Origin: Bolinopsis microptera
Taxonomy: Eukaryota; Ctenophora; Tentaculata; Lobata; Bolinopsidae
Length of the DNA: 64,000 bases
Direction of reading: 5' to 3'
Assembly (NCBI RefSeq): GCF_026151205.1
Contig: NC_087080.1
Location: forward strand, 10,711,837 to 10,775,836
Numbering within the stretch: the stretch's first letter is position 1; the number at the start of each line of letters is the position of its first letter. Below are positions 1 to 59,998 of the stretch, piece by piece. The notes beneath the pieces are model-generated. The model did not search any database. It was not told where the DNA came from and was given only the letters and a program-made list of their open reading frames with translations. Both the position numbers and the translations under genes were made by a program.

Positions 1-351
1 TGGGCCCGCTATAAAAGTTTACAAAGAATGTTTTATAGTAAAATGGGCGTTTATTCTTTTATTATACGTTTACCAGGATAATGACTGCGCACGGAAATAT
101 ACATTAGAGTCTAGAAAGAGATTTAAACTCAGTTCATATCAAAATATCACAAAGAATCATTGTGTAAGTATAATAATTCAAATTGTCTTGAATCGCTAGA
201 TCAGGTAGAATTCCAACTTAGATCAGTCGCTCTGCGAATATTTTACATCTTTTCCATATCTTCACCCCATTCTAAAATCTGATAGAAAATTGAACACATG
301 TCCACCATCTGACTAGATCAATTAACAAATACTAAATTCCCATCCGTGCCT

Positions 352-1950
352 CTAATCCAGTTGAATCCATTTCTGACTCTTAGGAATGGGAAGGCTGCTA
401 GTTAATGACGTTTCTCTCCAATTACACTTGTCGTGTTCGTCGTAAGTGTGGTGTTTACCAGCACAGCCACAGTTCTCACAGACGGGCCGCACTGTGTACT
501 CCTGCAATGCATTTGAGGATTAGGTAATAAGTTAAACATGAAATGGTAGGTATTACAAGGTCACGCTGTGGACCTTCATGGGAATTGGGGATGTGGCACA
601 AGTTTGTTTTGGTACATGTATATGATTCGACGATTTGATTGGTCGATACTGTCAGCTGCTAGGTTATTCAGAGTCAAGTATGATAATAAAACTTGTGCCA
701 AGTCCCCAGCACCACTATATCTACACCAATAAATACTAAAAACGACTATAAAAGACAGTATGTGAAGACTGAAACTAGGGTCAATACTTCAGCACAATAA
801 ATAATGCTCCTATCCAGATATTACAATCCCAGATAGTATCACATCAGATATAACAACCAGATATTATCACATCAGATATTACAACCAGATAATATCACAT
901 CAGATATTACCCTCCCTGTACCTTGTGAGGTTCCTCTGAATCGTCGCTGTAAAAGTCCTGCTCGCTATCTAAACAAGTACTACCTCTCGTACTATTGCTA
1001 CCTCTGCAACTCCAGAATGCTTCGCTCACGTCTGACCTAAAATATAAGATCATGATATCGTCGTATTTGGAATTGGATTTAGGATTTATTTAATTTCTGA
1101 TATAAGTTAGTTGCTGTAAAATTTGAATTTTGAAGGCGACGATTTGTAAGATATACTGTGGTTTTACTGAGGTAACAGCTGTAAAATTAAATCGTTAATT
1201 CATGAGAAGAGTAAGGTAGGTGTAAACATAGTAATCTCAGACAGAATTATAAAGATAGAATAAGGATAGTAAAATACCTGAGGTCGTTGGCGGAGGTAAG
1301 GGTACTCCTCATCCCTTGGGAGAGGGTCTCAAACAAATCGGTATCATTCAGATACCCAAAACTGGCGCTAAATGATCTTTTGTCTGGCTTCATGAAGTCG
1401 TTAGCATAGTAGTAATCGGTACTGAAATACGGTTTTATATGCTTAAAATGGAATAGTTATCAAGAATTACTTAATTAAATTATACTTATAATCCTCTTCT
1501 TATACAAATTATATTGGAGAGCTACAGTTGGAGCCATCATTGTTGATAATCGGGGATTTACGAACAAACCTTCTGAAGATTTCGCTGGTAGATTTAGATC
1601 TGTAATCTAGGCCATGTGTCTGGAATGGTGGTTCCACTGTGTCGTATCCGTTATCTCGGCGACCTACCACAAATAATATTGCAAATTAATTTATTAGCAG
1701 ACCACTAATTTAAAGACGGATGCAATACTTGGAGCACACTGTGCAATATCGAGGTGAAGCTATAGCAATAATCAAACAATCAACCAATTCAGATAATAAG
1801 AGTAGAAATCTACCTGGATTTGATATTCCGTTGAGACTATCTAAATCTCCGGCCCTTGGAGACTCTTCGATGCTATCATAGCCTGACGGTGTGCCGAGTC
1901 TCTTAAAACAGGGGCCGAAACACGACCTCAGTGTTGCTGCGAGCATCCAT
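352..1950 (-). CDS. 3' end of an unrecognised Cys-rich protein gene (five terminal exons)
   Basis: Five exons join in one frame, in transcript order 1814-1950, 1570-1663, 1278-1421, 922-1036 and 352-501. All have AG acceptors and GT donors, the phases agree throughout, and the last exon ends in TAG. The visible 212 residues start WMLAATLRSCFGPCFKRLG, a Cys/basic stretch like a palmitoylated juxtamembrane segment. Two similar GYDSIE and GYDTVE motifs follow, then Ser/Asp/Tyr-rich sequence, and the tail holds CENCGCAGKHH with a later Cys. I do not recognise the family. By inference it is the cytoplasmic tail of a membrane protein. The 5' exons were not found and should lie further right, or beyond the elements at 2-10 kb. 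Exon structure is well supported; identity is unknown. Confidence 0.65.
835..910. repeat. Short tandem repeat, about 26 bp x 3, in an intron
   Basis: Three slightly varied copies of a unit containing ATCACATCAGATAT and ACAACCAGATA lie next to the exon at 922-1036 of the unknown gene. No function is apparent. Confidence 0.6.
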
Positions 1951-2369
1951 CTACAGCATCCTTAAAATAAAAAGGGAGCTTGTTAGTTTACATAAACTAA
2001 ATAAACTTATAAATCGGCGAGTTTTTTAAACAGCTTCCTTGATTGTTGGAATGAAATTGAAGGGAAATTTTGCAAAAGGATCATTGATAACACGAGCGGT
2101 AGGAGCGGTAGGAGCATGACCAGCTAGAAATGTTAATGAAGGTGCAGAAGCTTAAGCACCGCCAGCTATTATATTAGCGACAAGAGAACCGTCATTGTTG
2201 GACGTGAGGAGAGTGAGGACTCCTCAAACTACATTAAATTAAAACTTTTAACTAACGAGGAGGATTTACAGTTATTGTGTTTAGTGTTTGCCCAGCATAT
2301 AAACCAGCTACTTGTATTACAATACTGAGGAAAGTTCATTTCTTTAATTTATTTCTTTTTCGGGACTAA
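1951..2369. other. Noncoding stretch left of the large palindrome
   Basis: AT-rich sequence without a supportable exon. One short piece contains a repeated GTAGGAGCGGTAGGAGC. The 5' exons of the unknown gene at 352-1950 were searched for here and not found. Confidence 0.4.
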
Positions 2370-3726
2370 TTAAGGGGGCATACCCCAAAACAGTGGTTTG
2401 TGCCGTCCAGACCAAATGACCTCATAGGCAGTTCAGTGACCTTCTAGCGCACCGTTTCCACACAAAAAAAATTATTTTGAGAATTCCCATTTTTGTAATC
2501 GACCATTTCCTGGTTAAGAGTGCAATTTTCGGAAAAAATTATTTTGTGGTTGAGACGCTATAAGTTAATCATTTCTTGCGGTATCGGGTTGAAATTTTGC
2601 TCGCCGTTTATTCACATCTATGTCAAGGTGTGTGTAAAATCTTGATATCGTATCTAAAAAGGCTGGTGTGTTATGAATTTTTAAAGTCAAAAAGCTAAAA
2701 TTGTCCTTTTCAGGCTTATTTTAACAATAAGTCAGTCAGAGAAGATCGGATTATTTGATACTTGACATCAAATTGTTCTCTGAATTCTGGCGCAGTTTTT
2801 GATGCCCTCAAAAATGTTTTTACTCATTCACCTTCTGATCTATTGGACCTCAAAGCCAAACAACAAATTTAGGCACATTTTTCGTTTTTAATATTTACTG
2901 ATTTTTCTAAAATTTTGATAGGAATGTGCTAGTGACTTTTTGAAGGGAGCAAAATAACCGCAACTAGCACATTTATATATGAGTTATGAACAACAAAACA
3001 CCCTAAAATGCTTCCCTTTGAAGTTATGGGAGAAAATGTGATTTTTTGGCTTTGCAGATAAAAAATCACATTTTCTCCCATAACTTCAAAGGGAAGCATT
3101 TTAGGGTGTTTTGTTGTTCATAACTTATATATAAATGTGCTAGTTGCGGTTATTTTGCACCCTTCAAAAAGTCACTAGCACATTCCTATCAAAATTTTAG
3201 AAAAATCAGTAAATATTAAAAACGAAAAATGTGCCTAAATTTGTTGTTTGGCTTTGAGGTCCAATAGATCAGAAGGTGAATGAGTAAAAACATTTTTGAG
3301 GGCATCAAAAACTGCGCCAGAATTCAGAGAACAATTTGATGTCAAGTATCAAATAATCCGATCTTCCCTGACTGACTTATTGTTAAAATAAGCCTGAAAA
3401 GGACAATTTTAGCTTTTTGACTTTAAAAATTCATAACACACCAGCCTTTTTAGATACGATATCAAGATTTTACACACACCTTGACATAGATGTGAATAAA
3501 CGGCGAGCAAAATTTCAACCCGATACCGCAAGAAATGATTAACTTATAGCGTCTCAACCACAAAATAATTTTTTCCGAAAATTGCACTCTTAACCAGGAA
3601 ATGGTCGATTACAAAAATGGGAATTCTCAAAATAATTTTTTTTTGTGTGGAAACGGTGCGCTAGAAGGTCACTGAACTGCCTATGAGGTCATTAGGTCTG
3701 GACAGATTTGGGGTATGCCCCCTTAA
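2370..3726. mobile_element. 1.36 kb near-perfect palindrome (fold-back element)
   Basis: Two arms of about 670 bp (about 2370-3047 and 3060-3726) are reverse complements with few mismatches, separated by about 12 bases. Both ends read TTAAGGGGGCATACCCC inward. The outermost TTAA is compatible with a piggyBac-type target duplication, but TTAA is itself palindromic, so it cannot be told apart from arm sequence. No reading frame of useful length is present. It is most likely a non-autonomous fold-back transposon; the transcript would form one very long hairpin. Confidence 0.85.
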
Positions 3727-4138
3727 TGATGTACATATTTGGAGTTGCTACTAACGTTGAGTTAATGTTATTGAAGTTCCATTTTTGAAGTCAAATTTTG
3801 CCACACAAGATGCCACAGACGCCATGCGATGAGCGAGAATCAAGATCAGCAATCAAGTGAAAGTGCGAAAGTTTGTGGAGCTTTTATTGCTGTATCAAAA
3901 ACACAGCAAGGAAAATTTGACTACAATCTCACAGTTACTACAGTTCAACATCAACGTCGATAAAAGGATTGCAAAATGGCTGATGTGCGGGATTAATTTC
4001 CAAGAGGTCACTTAAAATTCCACACTTACATAAGGTATCCGTTATAGGTGTACACTTGTGATGTGGAGTGTGGTCTACTTTTTTTTATAGTAATATTACC
4101 GTACGATTTATTATATTGGGTCATACATCCGGATCCCG

Positions 4139-4205
4139 ATGGCACTGTCGCGGCACTCTCGAGGCACTCCCGTGGCACTCTCGAGGCACTATGGCGGCTA
4201 GTGCC
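4139..4205. repeat. Degenerate tandem repeat based on GAGGCACTC
   Basis: Five or so imperfect copies of a GGCACTCTCGA-like unit are followed by GGCACTATGGCGG. The short open frames here and nearby arise from the repeat and show no protein-like features. Confidence 0.5.
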
Positions 4206-4677
4206 AACTTTCAATCATGTTCTTTCAAAAGCATCCGGATGTATACCTTATATTGTAATTTGTACAATGTGCACACTACACAGTGTTTAAATTTAGTGTA
4301 TAATTGGTTCACATGTAACGTTAGGATCCTAGGGGAGGGGATTTCGTAATAATTGGCTGAAATGATGACGTTAATGTATAAATTTGCACACAATGAACAA
4401 GGGATAAACTTGCTGAAGTAAGATGAGTTTAAAATGGCAAAGTGTTGCTGATTTAAAAAGGTGAATATTAAGATCTATTTTTAGAAACCACCTTTCATAA
4501 TTGTACTTGATGACTGATCTAGAGGCGGCAGTATGGAGACGATTTGTACGGAGACGATTTGTACAAAAACAACATTGGAGACTATTAATTGTATTTGTAA
4601 GGAGAGCACAACTCAAGGAGGAACAAACATTAAACATGTAACTCTATGTGAAACATCGGATCATGCACATTCCTTAG

Positions 4678-4850
4678 GGGTCGTTCACATATTACGTAAT
4701 CATTTTTTGGAACATTTTTACCCCCCCCCCCCCCCCCTCTGTAATCAGTTTTACACATATAGCTATTGTGTCAAAATTACACTAGCGTAATCATTCGGAA
4801 AACTACCCCCCCCCCCCCCCTCAGCTGATTACGTAATATGTGAACGACCC
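4678..4850. mobile_element. MITE-like element with 25 bp terminal inverted repeats
   Basis: The left end GGGTCGTTCACATATTACG (from 4678) is repeated inverted at the right end (to 4850), about 25 bp matching in all. The interior carries two C-homopolymer tracts and no coding capacity. Total length is 173 bp. No flanking target duplication was convincingly identified. Confidence 0.75.
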
Positions 4851-5204
4851 GTTATACCAGCATTTAATATTTCGATGATGCAACATTTTTGATGTCATGC
4901 CTCTCTTTAATAACATTACTACAGGCAAATAGCCAGATTGCTTCAAACATAAACACTCAAAACTATCCCGACACTCCTAACAACATTTATCAAGACGAGG
5001 AAGATTTGCTTTTAGCTTTACAAATTCACAACAACATAACGCAACAGCACAGCAGCTATAATATCGTGAATAATATCCTGTATCAGGGAGTATATACACT
5101 GATGACACTATGATTGGCTCTGTATAACCACACAAAGCAGTACTAAATCCAACAATACACCAGACAATACAATCTAACAGAACAGATAGCTGGTAGTAGC
5201 TGCG

Positions 5205-5243
5205 TGACGTCACGTGATGACGTCACGTGATGACGTCACGTGA
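5205..5243. promoter_or_regulatory. Three tandem TGACGTCACGTGA units (CRE + E-box)
   Basis: Three perfect head-to-tail copies of a 13 bp unit. Each copy contains the palindromic cAMP-response element TGACGTCA overlapping the E-box CACGTG. Such sites are bound by CREB/ATF and USF/MITF-type bZIP and bHLH factors in animals. No gene start was identified beside it, so its regulatory role is inferred only from the motif. Confidence 0.5.
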
Positions 5244-5249
5244 TCTTGT

Positions 5250-7380
5250 GCAAATAGTACCCCACCGTGTTACGCAATATATATATGGTTGCGAAATTAT
5301 CCTGAGGATGCAGTCACTAAATTGAGTTGGAGGTGCCGCTTCATGCACGGCCCACCTCGTATTAAATATACGATTGTCAGCTGTTTGAAAGCACTGTATG
5401 AGCATATAATATCCTTTATACAATTTTGTACAGTTTATAGACTATACGAGATACCTTAGGCGGAAATATTATGGGGGTCAAATTTGGTTCTTTTCGGGCC
5501 AAAAAACCATATTTATAACAGTCCATTATTTAACCCCCCCCCCCCCCCCCCCTTAATATTACCGACTAAGGTATACAGACATATACAGTGCATACAATAC
5601 ACGGTCATGATTGGCACCATTTCCGGGTCTTCACACTATCTACAACAAAACAAATGTCCTTCACACTAAAAGAAGAGATAAGCAAAGTTTCTCACCGTGA
5701 TCTTTAACGCACATCCAAGGAGAAGAAGAAGAAGAAACCTCCCAGATCAGCTACATCAGTACCACTGACCAGATCTGTAAACAATCTATACACTAGCCGG
5801 CCGCAATATACTGAAACAGCTTCACACACAATCAAACAACGCTCTATCACTCAAAGACTTGAGAGCGAGATGTAATATAACACTACACAAGATGCCTCAA
5901 CAGAAATGGGGCATGTTATTTAGGGGATTGGTAGGCAGCTCTCTCTGCTTTATTGTGTTACGTTTTACACTGGATATATTTAGTATATTATGTTGATGTA
6001 ATTTATGAGAGAGAGAGGGCCGGTGAGCTCGTCTTAAATTTGCATAATAAGTAAGTTGTTCATGTGTGTAATTTTATACTATGTTATTGGTTATTTTCTG
6101 TGAGGTGGTGTTTTTGCGAGGAAGTGAATTTTAGAATTGTACGATTGTGTTTTGGTGTGTAAGTGCATATACATGGTATTCTGTATATAGTGTATAGTTT
6201 GTAAATTGAGTTTGTTATACTATTTATTATCGTAATTATGCATGAATTGTGATCATTATGTGCCCATTCTGAGCCGACCAGTCTGCCCTCCTCAGAGGCA
6301 ACTATTAGACCTTATGAGCCCCAAATCATGAAACCACGATTACCTACCTTGTATAGTGTATTGAACCCCGAGTTATATTAATCACTGCAGCGTCATCGCA
6401 TCTTGATTCTTGAATAATATGCGCTATAATGCTCCTAACTCTCCTCGAGAGCCACGCCCCACTGCAGATCTGCAGTCCTGACACATAGTGGGGATCATGA
6501 TGAGGTCTATGTCAGGTAACCATTACAAGAGGAGCTGCTGTTGCAGAGCTTCATGTGATGGATTACAACATGGAATCTGCCTGAAATACAGGACCTGTAT
6601 CTCACATGGGCAGTGGGCATTTGCGCAACTTTGCGATTTTGGTACTAAACAGACGATAACCTTACAACTGTTGGCATCTATATAGACACATTAAGATGCA
6701 ACGGATTGAATCATGCCGCTGGGTGAAACTCGCTAGCACCAATAGTGGTTCACGATTTGACTGTGATTATGGACGATGCAATCTCTCTGGTTTCTTGAGT
6801 GACCCTTTTCGTATTGCACACACTTTAAACTGTGAAAAATCAGCACCCATTTAATTTAAATAATAAATAAATTATTGCTCAAGTGTACAGTGTACCTAGA
6901 AGTGTACCTAGAAGAATTAACAGTTGATTCCTCTTAATACAAGCAAGCAGCATATCAAATGGAGGACCAACTTTTAAATTGTCATACTAAAAAGTCTTTG
7001 AGAGCTCAATCCGAGATCAAAACAACTATATCTACTATATATTGATCTGACGGGTGCTAAGTACTGTGGGAGAAAGCAGGTAGACATACAAGCAAATTCA
7101 ATAACTCATAATAACGGGGAGCAATCAGTAGATGGCTTTATCAAGGTGGTGTAGATATATTGGGAAATCGGTACTGAATATGGGATCATTTACATAATAT
7201 TAAGCAACTTACATTTCTATACATGATCGGCTATGTGTGAAAGGGATTTCGGGGAGGGAATATGCTTGATAATCGGATGCTAGGTTACCCAAACTGGAGT
7301 AAGGCAATCTGTTCTCTTTTGAAAAAGTACAATCCCAATTTTAACTTGAACAGAAAAATATAGAGCACGGATAATTAAAA
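5250..7380. other. Noncoding stretch with no supportable gene
   Basis: AT-rich sequence with a C-homopolymer at about 5536-5552 and a short GAAGAAGAAGAAG run at about 5721. No exon with matching splice sites, RNA gene or clear element was recognised. Confidence 0.4.
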
Positions 7381-17496: not shown

Positions 17497-19030
17497 CTGC
17501 AGGTTCTTACGGGTTAGATACAATTGTTTTATTTTTGTTCATTAAACCACATGAGTGGGAAATTCTAGGTTTGCAGAAAATTATAATACGATCAGATGAA
17601 AACAGGTAGAATCGGTTCATTATCTAAAATATTTAGAGTGAGTATCGATCTCACAGATCACAGTCGAAATATTAAACTGAAATCTTACTAGAATTACCGT
17701 TAAGACTTCCTTTAGAGGGTGAGACAGTCAGCAGCTTCTCTTTAATCACCTCCATCTTCATACCAGCCCCTGCAACTAGATCGTTAACTTTATAGATTAA
17801 GAAAATTACTTGATTGCATTTTGGAGTTCTTCGAAGTTCGGAATTTTGAATCAAAAAATTGTTGACGAACCAACACTAAATCTTCACCCTCACCAGGAAC
17901 ATTTGCCAGCTCCTGGACAGTATCCTGTCTGTTGTAAAACTGAACAGAGAGAGAGGATCCAAATGCGGAGATGGCCACAAAATTATCATGAGGATGAAAC
18001 TTGACGTCAGATGTGCTGTGTGGGAGACCCAGTTTGTAGGTGTAACTCAGCTCCCCTGAAAGTATTAGGGAATTGTTACAAGTCTTGTGGATGTTGTAGA
18101 ATACTGTTGAGGAACTTTGGGGTGAAGATGTGAAAAAATTAAACAAGATTAAGGGGAGTTCTAGTTCTTAGACGCAGCAGAACAAGTGAACAACAAAACT
18201 TTTCCCAATAATCTAGAGGCACGGCTACAAAAGCGTATAACTAAATATTGTAATAGTTTGTTTTAACGACCGATTCAAATTATTTCACCATAGTTTACAA
18301 CGTAAAATACGTAGTGACGTACCAGTTTCTACGAGCCAGACAAAGACGTTACCATCTTCAGATGCAGATAAGAGATATGTACCACAGGGTGATACCGAAC
18401 ACTGAAGGAACAGCTATAAGTATACATACTATATATATATATATATATATGTAATGAGTTTGTAGAGCAGTCTGGTACCTATGTAATTCCCTCATCATTA
18501 GGGGCTTGGTAGCTCAGTGGCGTGGTTTCGAGCCAGTAATCGAAGGTTGCCGGATCGATACCCGCCATCAGCAAAAACCAACCCTGGTGATTTGAGCCAT
18601 ACTGATGAGTCCTAATAGGACGAAACACTGTGTCTATGGATATATATATATATTAGTCAAGGCGTTGTTTTACTGATAGTTGTGGCTAACTAATAATATA
18701 TATATATATATCCATAGACACAGTGTTTCGTCCTTTTAGGACGTCCTTTAAAGCACTTTGGAGGGATGAACGTTAGAGAAGAAAGATGATTTTCTTCTTG
18801 CATATTTTATTTTCTCACCTCTACCACTCTTTTGGGATTTCAACCCACCATAACTTGAATTGCTGAGTTACATAAATTTCTAAATTTTAAATTTCTTTTA
18901 TTTGATTGATTGATGGATTGATATTTTGAATAAATTTACTAACATGTCTTTATATCAGGATGACTGTAAAGGTACATTTTACCGACATTTGAAGTCAAGG
19001 CGTTGTTTTACTGATAGTTGTGGCTAACTG

Positions 19031-19119
<89 letters not shown>

Positions 19120-33200: not shown

Positions 33201-36200
33201 ACCGTAGAAAAAGAAATGGGTATCATAAAATTAATAGATCTAATTTATCATATTATATTAGATTAATAAATAATTATATATTACCTCAAGGAATTATCTA
33301 TTACCTCGAGAAACAACATAGCGTTATCATTACCAATAATACTATTGTAATGCTCGGGAATAAGAAGCTGCTCCTCCCAACAGGGGGACATAGTCTTATT
33401 AATCCTCAAATCAAACGGCTCTGTCAACAGAGGCTGTATAGTGCTGTACCGTGCATCACCTGCAATTTAAAATGTTTTAAAGCAGCTTATTATACGACAT
33501 ATACAGGATACCATAGTCGTGGGAATTTAAAATAAGTGCCAAATATTCTGAAAAGGGCGAAGAGTTTACATGGAATACCAACCACAGGCTTGGGATGTGT
33601 ATTGTGTTATACCGAAAATTATGGTCTCCATAAAATCCAGAGAGACCAGCACTCAAATAATAACTCACCTTAAGTTGAGGGTAAAGGTTTACCTGTCTTG
33701 CTGTCCAGCACTCAAATAATAACTCACCTAAAGTTGAGGGTAAAGGTTTACCCGTCTTGCTGTCTAGCACTCAAATAATAACTCACCTAAAGTTAAGGGT
33801 AAAGGTTTACCCGTCTTGCTGTCCAGCACTCAAATAATAACTCACCTAAAGTTAAGGGTAAAGGTTTACCCGTCTTGCTGTCCAGCACTCAAATAATAAC
33901 TCACCTAAAGTTGAGGGTAAAGGTTTACCCGTCTTGCTGTCCAGCACTCAAATAATAACTCACCTAAAGTTGAGGGTAAAGGTTTACCCGTCTTGCTGTC
34001 CAGCACTCAAATAATAACTCACCTAAAGTTGAGGGTAAAGGTTTACCTGTCTTGCTGTCCAGCACTCAAATAATAACTCACCTAAAGTTGAGGGTAAAGG
34101 TTTACCCGTCTTGCTGTCCAGCACTCAAATAATAACTCACCTAAAGTTGAGGGTAAAGGTTTACCCGTCTTGCTGTCCAGCACTCAAATAATAACTCACC
34201 TAAAGTTGAGGGTAAAGGTTTACCCGTCTTGCTGTCCAGCACTCACATAATAACTCACCTAAAGTTGAGGGTAAAGGTTTACCCGTCTTGCTGTTCAGCA
34301 CTCACATAATAACTCACCTAAAGTTGAGGGTAAAGGTTTACCCGTCTTGCTGTTCAGCACTCAAATAATAACTCACCTAAAGTTGAGGGTAAAGGTTTAC
34401 CCGTCTTGCTGTTCAGCACTCACATAATAACTCACCTAAAGTTGAGGGTAAAGGTTTACCCGTCTTGCTGTTCAGCACTCAAATAATAACTCACCTAAAG
34501 TTGAGGGTAAAGGTTTACCCGTCTTGCTGTCCAGCACTCAAATAATAACTCACCTAAAGTTGAGGGTAAAGGTTTACCCGTCTTGCTGTCCAGCACTCAA
34601 ATAATAACTCACCTAAAGTTGAGGGTAAAGGTTTACCTGTCTTGCTGTCCAGCACTCAAATAATAACTCACCTAAAGTTGAGGGTAAAGGTTTACCCGTC
34701 TTGCTGTCCAGCACTCAAATAATAACTCACCTAAAGTTGAGGGTAAAGGTTTACCCTGTCTTGCTGTCCAGCACTCAAATAATAACTCACCTAAAGTTGA
34801 GGGTAAAGGTTTACCCGTCTTGCTGTCCAGCACTCACATAATAACTCACCTAAAGTTGAGGGTAAAGGTTTACCCGTCTTGCTGTTCAGCACTCACATAA
34901 TAACTCACCTAAAGTTGAGGGTAAAGGTTTACCCGTCTTGCTGTTCAGCACTCAAATAATAACTCACCTAAAGTTGAGGGTAAAGGTTTACCCGTCTTGC
35001 TGTTCAGCACTCACATAATAACTCACCTAAAGTTGAGGGTAAAGGTTTACCCGTCTTGCTGTTCAGCACTCAAATAATAACTCACCTAAAGTTGAGGGCA
35101 AAGGTTTACCCGTCTTGCTGTTCAGCACTCACATAATAACTCACCTAAAGTTGAGGGTAAAGGTTTACCCGTCTTGCTATCCAGCACTCAAATAATAGCT
35201 CACCTAAAGTTGAGGGTAAAGGTTTACCCGTCTTGCTGTTCAGCACTCAAATAATAACTCACCCAAAGTTGAGGGTAAAGGTTTACCCGTCTTGCTATCC
35301 AGCACTCAAATAATAACTCACCTTAAGTTGAGGGTAAAGGTTTACCCGTCTTGCTGTCCAGCACTCAAACAATAACTCACCTAAAGTTGAGGGTAAAGGT
35401 TTACCCGTCTTGCTGTTCAGCACTCACATAATAACTCACCTAAAGTTGAGGGTAAAGGTTTACCCGTCTTGCTATCCAGCACTCAAATAATAGCTCACCT
35501 AAAGTTGAGGGTAAAGGTTTACCCGTCTTGCTGTTCAGCACTCAAATAATAACTCACCCAAAGTTGAGGGTAAAGGTTTACCCGTCTTGCTATCCAGCAC
35601 TCAAATAATAACTCACCTTAAGTTGAGGGTAAAGGTTTACCCGTCTTGCTGTCCAGCACTCAAACAATAACTCACCTAAAGTTGAGGGTAAAGGTTTACC
35701 CGTCTTGCTGTTCAGCACTCACATAATAACTCACCTAAAGTTGAGGGTAAAGGTTTACCCGTCTTGCTATCCAGCACTCAAACAATAACTCACCTAAAGT
35801 TGAGGGTAAAGGTTTACCCGTCTTGCTGTTCAGCACTCACATAATAACTCACCTAAAGTTGAGGGTAAAGGTTTACCCGTCTTGCTATCCAGCACTCAAA
35901 CAATAACTCACCTAAAGTTGAGGGTAAAGGTTTACCCGTCTTGCTGTCCAGCACTCAAATAATAACTCACCTAAAGTTGAGGGTAAAGGTTTACCCGTCT
36001 TGCTGTTCAGCACTCACATAATAACTCACCTAAAGTTGAGGGTAAAGGTTTACCCGTCTTGCTATCCAGCACTCAAACAATAACTCACCTAAAGTTGAGG
36101 GTAAAGGTTTACCCGTCTTGCTGTTCAGCACTCACATAATAACTCACCTAAAGTTGAGGGTAAAGGTTTACCCGTCTTGCTGTCCAGCACTCAAATAATA

Positions 36201-39200
36201 ACTCACCTAAAGTTGAGGGTAAAGGTTTACCCGTCTTGCTGTCCAGCACTCACATAATAACTCACCTAAAGTTGAGGGTAAAGGTTTACTCGTCTTGCTA
36301 TCCAGCACTCAAACAATAACTCACCTAAAGTTGAGGGTAAAGGTTTACCCGTCTTGCTGTTCAGCACTCAAACAATAACTCACCTAAAGTTGAGGGTAAA
36401 GGTTTACCCGTCTTGCTGTCCAGCACTCAAATAATAACTCACCTAAAGTTGAGGGTAAAGGTTTACCCGTCTTGCTGTCCAGCACTCAAATAATAACTCA
36501 CCTAAAGTTGAGGGTAAAGGTTTACCTGTCTTGCTGTCCAGCACTCACATAATAACTCACCTAAAGTTGAGGGTAAAGGTTTACCCGTCTTGCTGTCCAG
36601 CACTCAAACAATAACTCACCTAAAGTTGAGGGTAAAGGTTTACCCGTCTTGCTGTCCAGCACTCAAACAATAACTCACCTAAAGTTGAGGGTAAAGGTTT
36701 ACCCGTCTTGCTGTCCAGCACTCAAATAATAACTCACCTAAAGTTGAGGGTAAAGGTTTACCCGTCTTGCTGTCCAGCACTCAAATAATAACTCACCTAA
36801 AGTTGAGGGTAAAGGTTTACCCGTCTTGCTGTCCAGCACTCAAATAATAACTCACCTAAAGTTGAGGGTAAAGGTTTACCTGTCTTGCTGTCCAGCACTC
36901 ACATAATAACTTACCTAAAGTTGAGGGTAAAGGTTTACCCGTCTTGCTGTCCAGCACTCAAACAATAACTCACCTAAAGTTGAGGGTAAAGGTTTACCCG
37001 TCTTGCTGTCCAGCACTCAAACAATAACTCACCTAAAGTTGAGGGTAAAGGTTTACCCGTCTTGCTGTCCAGCACGTGAATTCTAACCAGTGGATGGAGG
37101 AGGTAGAGGGTAGGGTAGAGGTGGTCGGCGTAGTGAACCTTTACACTCATAGCTGAGTCTAACTGTCTGATAGCTGGTGAGGAGAGGACTGTTGCTATTG
37201 GTTCCTTTTCTGAGGGAGTTAAAACTAGGTTAACAGTTCAAGTATGTTGTATTATCATGTTGATAGAAATGGATCAGTCAATAATAAATCATCTCCATTA
37301 TAATTCGGAGTTTTCTCCGTGTATGTTTGTATGACCGCCCACGTGCAGATTAGGTTCAAATAAGGGAGCTGCATAGTAACGACGTTGGAACTATATTATG
37401 AGCGGTTTTTTAGTTATTATTATTGTTAAGTAAAGTGACGTGTTTTACATTAAATCGGCTGTATCTTCGGTTGGTATTTATTCATAAACTATTACCTGCA
37501 TTCTTCGGAGACGGCCCTCCTTTGCTCTTTTTATTGGGCATTAATTTCCTGAGGGTACTAGTCTTCTGCTTTTCCGGAGTCTGTGGTTCCTCAGCTTCTG
37601 CTGATAACACTGCTTTGTTTGAGATTATGACATCTTCATCTTTTTCAGATAGGACTGCCCCTGTTAGATATCCAACATAAACTTTTGATATTAAGATTGT
37701 ACAATTATATTGAGCTGAATGTTGCATCTCAGGAATTTACGACCATACTGTTATTGGAATTATGATAATACAAATATTTACCTCCATCAACTTCAGTTTC
37801 TAAACCCTGTTTAGCCTTCTTCTTTCTCCGTTTCTTCTTCTTCTCTCTAGGAGATGGCACCATGTTGGCCTCAGCAGCAGATACATCAGGGGTAGGACTG
37901 CCAGGTGTAGGACTGAGCGGTGCAAGACTCTCTTCTGGAGTTTCCTGACTTTCTGGATCAGGCAGGTCACGCTGGAATCATTTGAGTGAGTCAAAATTGA
38001 GGTCTAAAAAGGACAAGAAAGATTAAATGTTTCACTGAAAGATCAGATTTAAACTTAAACATTATGTAAACAAAACATTACGAGAAAAGATGTGAAACCT
38101 TTCGTCGTCGATTTCTCCTTTTAGGAATATCCTCAGTATGAGATTCAACTGTCTCAACCTTTTTTGACGGCTCAGGTGTTATCACTGTCACTCTAGAATC
38201 ATCCTTCGTCAACTTCCCCTCATCTTCCATTTTTTCAAGAAGTTTCCGTCGGGCCTGCCTCCTTGCTTCCCGAGCATTTTCGAACTTAGAACTATCAGTT
38301 GGTGAGACAGGTGATGTTTCGAGAGTTTGACCAGATGAAACGGTTTTAATTTTTGTTCCCATTGGGGAATCTGGTGTTTTCTCTGGAGTAGCAACTTCTT
38401 GTTCTGGGGGCATCACCAATTAAAATATAGCTAGGCTTTTCGAAACGATAACAAACTGTTTCAACATGTAACAAAGAAATAACATAAAATAAAATTCTAA
38501 ATTGAAAGAGTCACAATTATTGCACAAAGTGATCTGATAAAAAATAATTACCATCTTTGAGTGAAGGTTCCTCTTCGTCCAGTTCTTCCTCAGCTTCATC
38601 TTCACTATCAATCTGTTTAGCTCCAACATCCTCATCTTCTTCTACCTCCACTTTTTCTTCATCCTCCTCCTCTCCCTTGTCCCCATCTGCTTCCTCTTCT
38701 TCAGCCTCCACGAGAGCGTCTTTATCAGCGGTTTTCTGTTAACAAAATAATAAGATGATTTCCATAACGTCGATATTTTGGAAAGGGTACTATACGATGT
38801 ACATCAAATAAACAGGATTTACAAAAAAAAACCAAACTGATAACAGTTATTAAAATACCTTTTTCCCTTTCATTTTGGACTTTCCCTTAGATTTCAACTT
38901 ATTTCCAAGCATTGAAAACTTGTTTTTGAACTTCTTCTTTGCCTTTTCAGATTTAGTTTTGCTTTCTCCCGCGTCTTCCTCTGCCTCATTTGTCTCAGCA
39001 ATGTCGTCTTCTGCAAGGTTGATATTTTTACAGATGTGCATAATGCAAAAATTCAAGATACAAATAATCATCTGTCTAATCATCTCCTAAAACAAGAGTT
39101 TAAAATACACTAACCTAATGGAACAGGTTCATCAATACTTTTACCATCTCTCTCGCTGATATCTTCCTCATTTATAACCTGAAATCAGAAATCACAGTTT

Positions 39201-56504: not shown

Positions 56505-59500
56505 TTTATTTTACTTGGGGACCTCAGGCTATCATGTTCATAAACATAATAGAATATACTCTAGTAGCAGAGCATAGTTGAGTGTGCACTTCGATGTACA
56601 CGATTTCTGACAACACAGGGTTGTTTGTTAGGTCATTCTAAACCAGAATCGTTTAGGTGGACAATTTCTTTCGCTAGAGACAACCCTACAGGGCAAATTT
56701 TCTAAATTACCCTCAGTCGCGTATACGGGATTTTTGTATTTCGGCTCCTGAAGGTCATGGAGACTTTATTTTTGGCGTAAAATTACCGCAGTGGCCACAT
56801 TTATATACAACTTATTAATCAATGTATGGTCTAAAATTGTTTGTTCCCGAGATATCTGCAAAAAACTAATTTAAGCTCAGGCGTAGGCACAAATTTCATC
56901 AAATTCGTATCTCAGCTTCTGAAGGTCTTAGCGACTCAAACTTTGGCTTAAAATGACCACAATGCACATGTTTATATTGACACTATAAAGGTCATAAAGG
57001 TCCAAAATGCTTGCTTTTGGAAAAAACCCAGAAAAACTGATTTTCACTGAGGCGAGTGAAAAAAATCTACTCTAGAAGCTAATTGAAATCGAGTATGCAG
57101 TTTGGTGTCTACAACTTTTCTAAAAACCAGGTCCTTTGTAAGGTCATTCTGGATCAGAATTGATAAGGTACGCAATTTCTATCAGTAGTTCCAACCCTAG
57201 GGGGAAAATTTCTAAATTACCCTCAGGCGCAAATATATGACTTTTGTATCTCGGCTTCAGAACGTTGTAGGGGCCTCTTTTTTAGCTCAAACTAACTGCA
57301 AAAGCCACATTTACATACTAGCAACAAAGCAACATAGGGTTTATAGTGCTTAGCTTTGGAGATATTCATTAAAAACTGTTTTAACTTTCGTGCATCCTAA
57401 AATAGTAACATCAAACATGTAATTAATTTTGGTATCCTGGGCTAAAACAGTCTTACAGACACTTTACTTGCAGCACAGCAAAATTTTCAGCATGAACACA
57501 TTCAGATAAAATTTATGGAGCAACACAATTCAGTTTCAGAAGCTCCTTCCAGCTATCTTATCTTATTCCCAAATGTATACATCTAACCGTCTCTCTGGCT
57601 ACTTCAAACTATTTCAATACCCAAATTTATACATGAACATCTAACTATCTCGTTATAGCTACCACAAGTTGGGCTCTCTCCAGTACTGTTTGACTATTAT
57701 GGCTAATCAACTTGAATCCCACCTCATGAAGTAGAATCTACTTCTAGCTACCTTTAATTCTGCTACCTCCATGCCATGCCTATATCTACCTAGCTACCAC
57801 CAGCACGTTATAATTTTAGCTCTTTCTAGCAACCTCTGAATGCTACCTCCTGATCTATACAGGTACCACCAGTGGGCAGAAACCACTAATTCCAGCTCTT
57901 TTGACCTACTTCGGCTACATTTATTTAGCTACTAATGCAAGGCCCCCTGGCCCCTCCAACCTCTGCTCTTTCTAGCAAACTTAACTTAAGCTACCTCTTG
58001 CCTTTTATAGTACCGCCAGCAACAATTTATTCTGGCTCTTTCCGGCTGCCTCAGCTGCATTCAACAATTCCCAGCTCATTGAGGAAGAGGAAACCTGCTA
58101 TTTCTAGCAACCTCTGAATGCTACTTCCTGCTCTATCTAGCTTCCACCAACACCCACTAATTATTGTTCAGCTACCACCAGCACCTGCAAATTCTAGTCC
58201 TATCCTGCAAACTCAGACTACATTATGCTATATAATACAGAAAGCACAAGCACCCTCAAATTCTAGCTGGAGCCTGCAGAGGTAGCATGAATTAGGTAAA
58301 AACAGATAGAATTTGAGAGTGCTCAACCAACTGAATATGGATGGATGTAGCCCGAAGTAGCTAGAAGAAGCTAAAATTTGTGGGTACCGTTTGCTAGTGT
58401 TAGCTGGATAGAGCAGAAAGTAGTCTGAGGTTGCTTAATAGGGCTAGAATTTGCAGGTGCTGGCGATAGCTGAACAGAGTAGGAGTAAATCTTAGGTTGC
58501 TGGATAGGGCTAGAATTTGCAGGTGCTAGTGGTAACATTTAAACAACAATTATTGGGTGTTGGTGGAAGCTAGATAGAGCAGGAAATAGTATTCAGAGAT
58601 TGCTAGAAGGAGCTAGAGTGGAGGTAGCAGGATTGAAGGAAACTAGAAGTAGATTCTACTGCATGAGGTTGGATTGGAGTTGATAAGCCATAATAGCCAA
58701 ACAGTACTGGAGAGAGCCCAACTTATGTTAAGACCGGGATCCCGGCTTAATCCCGATCCCTAATCCCGGTCCCAGTCTTAATCCCGGTCCTGGCACTTTT
58801 TCCCAGTCCCAGTCCCGGCCAAACAAGCGGTCCCGGTCGAGCCTTAAAAGCAACCAGGGAGATGGTCAGATGTATAAATTTGGGTATTGAAATAGTTTGA
58901 AGTAGCCAGAGAGACGGTTAGATGTATACATTTGGGGATAAGATAAGATAGCTGGAAGGAGCTTCTGAAACTGAATTGTGTTGCTCCATAAATTTTATCT
59001 GAATGTGTTCATGCTGAAAATTTTGCTGTGCTGCAAGTAAAGTGTCTGTAAGACTGTTTTAGCCCAGGATACCAAAATTAATTACATGTTTGATGTTACT
59101 ATTTTAGGATGCACGAAAGTTAAAACAGTTTTTAATGAATATCTCCAAAGCTAAGCACTATAAACCCTATGTAGCTTTGTTGCTAGTATGTAAATGTGGC
59201 TTTTGCAGTTAGTTTGAGCTAAAAGAGAGGCCCCTACAACGTTCTGAAGCCGAGATACAAAAGTCATATATTTGCGCCTGAGGGTAATTTAGAAATTTCC
59301 CCCCTAGGGTTGGAACTACTGATAGAAATTGCGTACCTTATCAATTCTGATCCAGAATGACCTTACAGAGGACCTGGTTTTTAGAAAAGTTGTAGACACC
59401 AAACTGCATACTCGATTTCAATTAGCTTCTAGAGTAGATTTTTTTCACTCGCCTCAGTGAAAATCAGTTTTTCTGGTTTTTTTCCAAAAGCAAGCATTTT

Positions 59501-59998
59501 GGACCTTTATGACCTTTATAGTGTCAATATAAACATGTGCATTGCGGTCATTTTAAGCCAAAGTTTGAGTCGCTAAGACCTTCAGAAGCTGAGATACGAA
59601 TTTGATGAAATTTGTGCCTACGCCTGAGCTTAAATTAGTTTTTTGCAGATATCTCGGGAACAAACAATTTTAGACCATACATTGATTAATAAGTTGTATA
59701 TAAATGTGGCCACTGCGGTAATTTTACGCCAAAAATAAAGTCTCCATGACCTTCAGGAGCCGAAATACAAAAATCCCGTATACGCGACTGAGGGTAATTT
59801 AGAAAATTTGCCCTGTAGGGTTGTCTCTAGCGAAAGAAATTGTCCACCTAAACGATTCTGGTTTAGAATGACCTAACAAACAACCCTGTGTTGTCAGAAA
59901 TCGTGTACATCGAAGTGCACACTCAACTATGCCCTGCTACTAGAGTAATAGAGATTCGGCGGAATGACAGGCTGAGTACGGCCCAGACCCCAGTAAGC
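56505..59998. mobile_element. MITE copy split by the 3.4 kb palindrome
   Basis: The left half (about 56505-56553) has CTTGGGGACCTCAGGCTATC and ATGTTCATAAACAT; the right half (59953-59998) has TTCGGCGGAATGACAGGCTG and CGGCCCAG...CCAGTAAG. Put side by side they are in the order of the intact copy at 13716-13793, so the larger element inserted into this one. Confidence 0.8.
56554..59945. mobile_element. 3.4 kb palindromic element with 7 bp target duplication
   Basis: The arms are long near-perfect reverse complements, checked by eye from the ends (CTCTAGTAGCAGAGCATAG / inverse) through about 57430 versus 59090 and on to about 57740 versus 58650. The centre near 58.2 kb is made of degenerate GCTACCTC/GCTACCACCAGCAC words and their inverses. 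The sequence TAATAGA flanks it on both sides (56547-56553 and 59946-59952). The right arm has an extra block of about 120 bp at about 58735-58855, rich in AATCCCGGTCC. No transposase frame is seen. Confidence 0.85.

Follow-up and report, generated by a model that had tools for sequence, protein, structure and literature searches.

The 64-kb stretch of Bolinopsis microptera DNA analysed here (the window; 38.6% GC) carries a type I hammerhead ribozyme at the end of a truncated copy of a repeated element, interpreted below as a retrozyme, which lies antisense to an AHI1-like gene and within an intron, next to a short inverted twin and to pieces of a Penelope-like element (PLE) (Table 1). Minus-strand frames on either side of the element match WD40 (E 6.4e-06) and two SH3 halves (E 8.4e-05 and 0.0014), all under the Pfam cut-off, and jouberin (AHI1) stands second, with E 0.038, among the best 30 solved-structure matches listed for the first SH3 half. 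An initial reading made from the letters of the window (the sequence-only reading) had placed the element in an AHI1 intron; WD40 and SH3 frames do flank it, and the AHI1 identity of the host gene is plausible but unproven. Elsewhere in the window there are a 1.37-kb palindrome (2369-3727; 97% self-complementary), a 59-bp minisatellite of 58 copies (33646-37075) and a pair of inverted 1.09-kb repeats that are 99% identical (56557-57642 and 58860-59947).

Table 1. Features of the retrozyme locus, in window coordinates.
Feature	Position	Strand	Basis
5' (TA)n target run	18430..18450		sequence; element start at 18450
5'-truncated retrozyme copy	18450..18642	+	unit positions 93-277 plus TATGGATA past cleavage site
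tRNA-like head	18501..18593	+	box A 18510-18520, box B 18552-18562; no tRNA model match
Type I hammerhead	18595..18641	+	RF00163 35.9 bits; predicted cleavage after 18634
(TA)n, 3' junction	18641..18653		sequence and end mapping
PLE-B 3' terminal scrap	18655..18697	+	96.6% over 58 nt to L057 PLE-B end; 98% over 57 nt to 18993-19049
(TA)n between PLE-B scrap and twin 3' end	18698..18710		sequence
Inverted twin, mapped as an insertion of its own with truncation at unit position 252	18709..18742	-	partial RF00163, mapping
5'-truncated PLE-B, head-to-head with twin, 3 nt between	18746..19033	+	L057 comparison
(AT)42.5 at PLE-B 3' end	19034..19118		repeat search

The motifs of an intact hammerhead had been reported at this site, and they are all in place; the Rfam covariance check agrees, with RF00163 matching the plus strand at 18595-18641 (35.9 bits, E 2.6e-05) above the gathering score of 34, and this is the sole match at that threshold across the window. 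Cleavage is predicted 3' of C18634. According to energy predictions stem III has at most about 3 pairs within a monomer and pairs well with a second copy (self-duplex -7.5 vs hairpin +2.1 kcal/mol). Its strand, ACACUGUGU, is almost self-complementary, which makes the dimer the expected active form; among random 9-mers that have the same ends, about 5% would match this self-complementarity. The minimum in local fold prediction is a non-hammerhead structure (-9.8 vs -3.3 to -6.3 for the hammerhead), hammerhead stem I has a predicted pairing probability of about 0.02, and for loop 1-loop 2 contacts an outer stem I of AUUU/AAAU is possible but unfavoured in the prediction. One unit folded as a circle gives -84.6 kcal/mol vs -67.4 for 100 shuffles (z -3.9), and its predicted minimum is still without the hammerhead fold.

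The inverted twin gives a partial RF00163 match at 18742-18717 (16.3 bits, E 1.1; model positions 14-39 of 45). It had been described as a broken minus-strand hammerhead, and it does run from stem II to the cleavage site without CTGATGA; however, it starts at unit position 252, which excludes a decayed hammerhead, and it maps as an independent 5'-truncated insertion adjoining PLE pieces. The ~43 nt that separate the two hammerhead pieces are the 3' end of PLE-B, and on the far side of the twin 18746-19047 matches the PLE-B of locus L057 with 97.4% identity over 302 nt. The twin starts at 18742 and this PLE-B at 18746, so that two truncated 5' ends meet 3 bases apart, and both 3' ends face outward, at (TA)n. 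Such a head-to-head joint, of which there is one case, would arise if copying had started at both sides of a single break, each time on a different RNA; two successive insertions are also possible. The arms 18609-18653 and 18698-18742 are 98% complementary and are predicted to form a 45-bp hairpin, in which 43 of the 45 positions pair with the twin at a probability of at least 0.88; holding the twin unpaired changes the predicted energy from -119.5 to -62.6. The window ribozyme is thus predicted to be locked by pairing with its twin. With its single hammerhead, moreover, the window copy could not release a unit circle by itself.

Upstream of the hammerhead, box A (TAGCTCAGTGG) and box B (GGATCGATACC), both identified by eye, stand at Pol III spacing, and they occur jointly in 6 of 5000 shuffles. 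The suggestion of a tRNA-type SINE head therefore holds for the boxes ahead of the hammerhead but not for tRNA homology, since neither RF00005 nor ARAGORN matches the head. The box A of the window copy is of the TAGCTC type, which is also present in L054. As a hotspot of 5' ends the expected Pol III start shows a weak excess at best (4 of 43; p 0.18 or 0.04, depending on the background) and was set aside, as was the absence of TTTT from the unit, which is uninformative because 61% of shuffles are likewise without TTTT. A separate tRNA SINE as the source of the head was also rejected: when the best 40 of 53 candidates in the genome were scored with the head, all 40 were listed as matches (C3:3635381 among them), and 37 of them lie at RF00163 places, while L056 and L091 are damaged but still hold part of a hammerhead.

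In the assembly searched (264.65 Mb, 232 contigs) there are at least 69 RF00163 matches in at least 47 places, 67 of them above the cut-off; both counts are lower bounds, obtained by scoring the best 74 of 35,380 candidates. The 47 places comprise 37 single matches, 6 pairs, 1 triple, 1 group of five and 2 of six, and 15 of the 22 spacings between neighbouring matches are 277-278; the largest mapped array has up to 7 hammerheads, and mapped multi-unit copies are arranged head-to-tail only. Cutting L011 and L040 at the cleavage site gives a unit of 277 nt rather than the 155 bp that had been proposed; it consists of a spacer of 140, a tRNA-like head of 97 that includes both boxes, and a hammerhead of 40. 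Full units of L040 are 99.6-100% alike, and four units compared in L032 are 91-95% alike. Two subfamilies occur within one array in L053 with exact phase kept, so one monomer circle cannot have produced this array. The array at L041 contains a ~3-kb insertion with inverted ends (3206-6174). The ribozyme is better conserved than the head: in 45 copies, a sample biased to intact hammerheads because most loci came from the hammerhead search, mismatches to the consensus number 13 of 2088 (0.6%) in the hammerhead, 2 of 573 at its core positions and 140 of 3311 (4.2%) in the head. In a check independent of that search, an RF00163 match lies downstream of 35 of the 40 listed head matches.

The 50 mapped stretches collapse to 43 distinct insertions, and in 42 of these the 3' end lies 7-11 nt beyond the cleavage site (exactly 8 nt in 30, by script scoring); in L055 it lies just 3 nt beyond. 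L065 and L079 have one substitution each at the 3' end, and the 3' end of L066 was read by eye. By script, TATATA lies within 30 nt downstream in 39 of the 43 and upstream in 33, vs 240 of 12,794 window positions, and two of the four downstream misses (L055 and L066) are TA-rich on reading. L042 is an empty (TA)n target that is filled in L032 and L045. The 5' phases are variable, spread from 3 to 252 in the unit, and some copies span one or two whole turns of it; four copies start at unit position 3-6, within the TA-like stretch that holds the 3' end, as expected for whole turns of the template. Since a cleaved linear monomer ends at GUC and the insertions run past it, the template would be circular, multimeric or an uncleaved transcript. 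At their 5' ends L043 and L044 start inside the head and then jump back ~20 nt, which resembles a reverse-transcriptase template switch. The 47 places, fixed 3' junction, variable 5' ends and common (TA)n targets support a non-autonomous hammerhead retroelement family, the part of the sequence-only reading that stands; the unit length and the twin as a decayed hammerhead are the parts that fall. RNA processing or circularisation, also suggested there, is plausible because head-to-tail arrays exist.

The genome also contains at least 147 GIY-YIG matches (a lower bound, from the best 150 of 524 candidates scored), in frames of up to 1043 aa. PLE-A has open frames of 1013 aa (L057) and 1043 aa (L060); the former carries a C-terminal GIY-YIG above the cut-off at residues 886-932 of 1013 aa, and Pfam gives no RT match in PLE-A. 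In PLE-B (L051) the GIY-YIG scores 18.1 bits, below the cut-off, and the C-terminal frame shares 38% identity with PLE-A over 266 aa. Among the PLE-A ends listed 17 of 18 run into (TA)n, as do 7 of 7 PLE-B ends; retrozyme and PLEs have the same target and junction type. Tail-to-tail joints over (TA)n occur in L049, L055, L057, L001 and the window. A GIY-YIG match stands within 1 kb of three of the 47 retrozyme places, vs 0.05 expected at random, and in 4 of 43 copies the 5' end has PLE sequence no more than 170 nt away, always in the opposite orientation; in L046, L048 and L052 the copy 5' end is separated from the PLE by a TA-rich or other stretch. No 3' signal common to PLEs and unit was seen in L057-L060, since the unit has no BLAST match there at E 0.01 and RF00163 has none at E 2. 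A hammerhead within these PLEs was rejected on the latter result (L058 and L059 hold incomplete frames), the four loci giving only loose core-pattern matches.

Upstream of PLE frames with an N-terminal GIY-YIG sit Twister-P5-like motifs, scoring 28.0-30.1 bits in L058, L059, L083 and L085 (cut-off 37.6) and seen in L087 by sequence pattern only. They are of two sequence types (L058 and L087; L059, L083 and L085). By strict pattern or model the motif is absent in 7 of the 12 loci examined, and searching the genome at E 0.001 gave no match; in PMC7761336 twister is noted for the 5' end of RTE elements. In PLE orientation, L059 has ~366-bp tandem repeats (1-3221) upstream of its PLE frame and L060 an 862-bp near-perfect palindrome (4388-5247); identical 266-bp direct repeats lie on either side of the L060 frame (552-817 and 4114-4379).

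The window feature is best explained as a single truncated copy of a non-autonomous retroelement that is SINE-like and of the metazoan retrozyme type. We consider it probable that this SINE-like retrozyme has a promoter of Pol III type and is moved by PLE machinery from RNA that is continuous over the ribozyme site, whether circle, multimer or uncut transcript. In the scheme that we infer, Pol III would transcribe through arrays, paired hammerheads would cleave the multimer at GUC^U, and monomers would be ligated into circles or multimers would persist. The PLE enzyme would open a (TA)n run in the target, a TA-rich primer would anneal just beyond the cleavage site (UAUGGAUAAAUAU), and reverse transcription would proceed upstream for one or several turns, which would account for the constant 3' end, the differing 5' truncations and the tandem copies. 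Direct observations are the unit, its arrays, the fixed 3' phase, the (TA)n sites, the presence of PLEs at such sites and in a joint with the element, and the stronger conservation of the ribozyme relative to the head.

A classical SINE with a (UA)n tail, whose linear transcripts would keep the flanking (UA)n and prime in (TA)n with the hammerhead as a tail-cutting passenger, would account for the fixed 3' end without circles, and copies that run from head to 3' junction only (L062, 154 nt; L065, 149 nt; L056, 140 nt with a broken 3' end) fit it. We nevertheless regard it as unlikely in view of the arrays with a 277-278 period and the copies of one or two whole turns, the greater conservation of ribozyme than of head, and the location of the listed head matches (of 40, 37 are at hammerhead places and L056 and L091 retain a remnant). 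Satellite DNA spread through unequal crossing-over, with an incidental hammerhead, would explain head-to-tail arrays and the mixed subfamilies of L053, but a single match at 37 of 47 places and one phase common to 42 of 43 ends make it very improbable. Still harder to credit is a host ribozyme working in the AHI1-like transcript: the intronic position agrees with it, but the element is antisense to the gene, is one among many copies and is predicted to be locked by its twin.

As described in the accessible parts of the sources cited here, several known systems resemble the retrozyme favoured above. It shares with the metazoan non-LTR retrozymes of PMC7229834 a type I hammerhead, a unit within their 150-450 bp, copies from monomers to tandem multimers and PLEs in the genome, and differs from them in its tRNA-like head and in (TA)n joined at the ribozyme. 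Such retrozymes have no LTR, primer site, polypurine tract or coding capacity, are expressed as linear as well as circular RNA, and in the canonical hammerhead form contacts between loop 1 and loop 2. Their GC is low (<50% in the text, <45% in a legend of that source), and that of the consensus unit is 45.8%; the accessible main text makes no mention of ctenophore, SINE, box A, RNA polymerase III or microsatellite. The newt and axolotl hammerhead repeats (PMC7229834), which reportedly cleave best as dimers, have a similarly weak, self-complementary stem III and differ in sequence and host. Sm-alpha and Sj-alpha of schistosomes (PMC2770079) also place a hammerhead in a SINE-like element, and Sm-alpha is a precedent for a tRNA-related element carrying one; however, Sm-alpha resembles tRNA-Gln-TTG whereas the head here fails tRNA models, and the phylum differs. 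With PLEs that bear minimal hammerheads (PMC7761336) the element has PLE target sites and 5' truncation in common, but its unit is 277 nt and the four PLE loci tested are without an RF00163 match. In open-licence full-text literature we found no paper joining ctenophore with hammerhead ribozyme or with retrozyme.

PLEs have been called a strong candidate mobiliser of animal retrozymes, from common features and co-occurrence (PMC7229834, accessible part). Junctions are more direct evidence on the mobiliser, and here they include common (TA)n targets, the style of the 3' end, an empty target and a retrozyme/PLE joint. We put forward, tentatively and as a possibility that we would not yet bet on, that the ctenophore Pol III-type retrozyme is a PLE parasite, in which the endonuclease would open (TA)n, the RT would start at the TA-like stretch past the cut, and the RNA would be circular or multimeric, giving tandem copies in one phase. 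The twin/PLE-B joint would then be a single event, both sides of one (TA)n break having primed copying, one on retrozyme RNA and the other on PLE RNA. If true, this would extend retrozymes to the lineage proposed as sister to other animals and would link them to a mobiliser.
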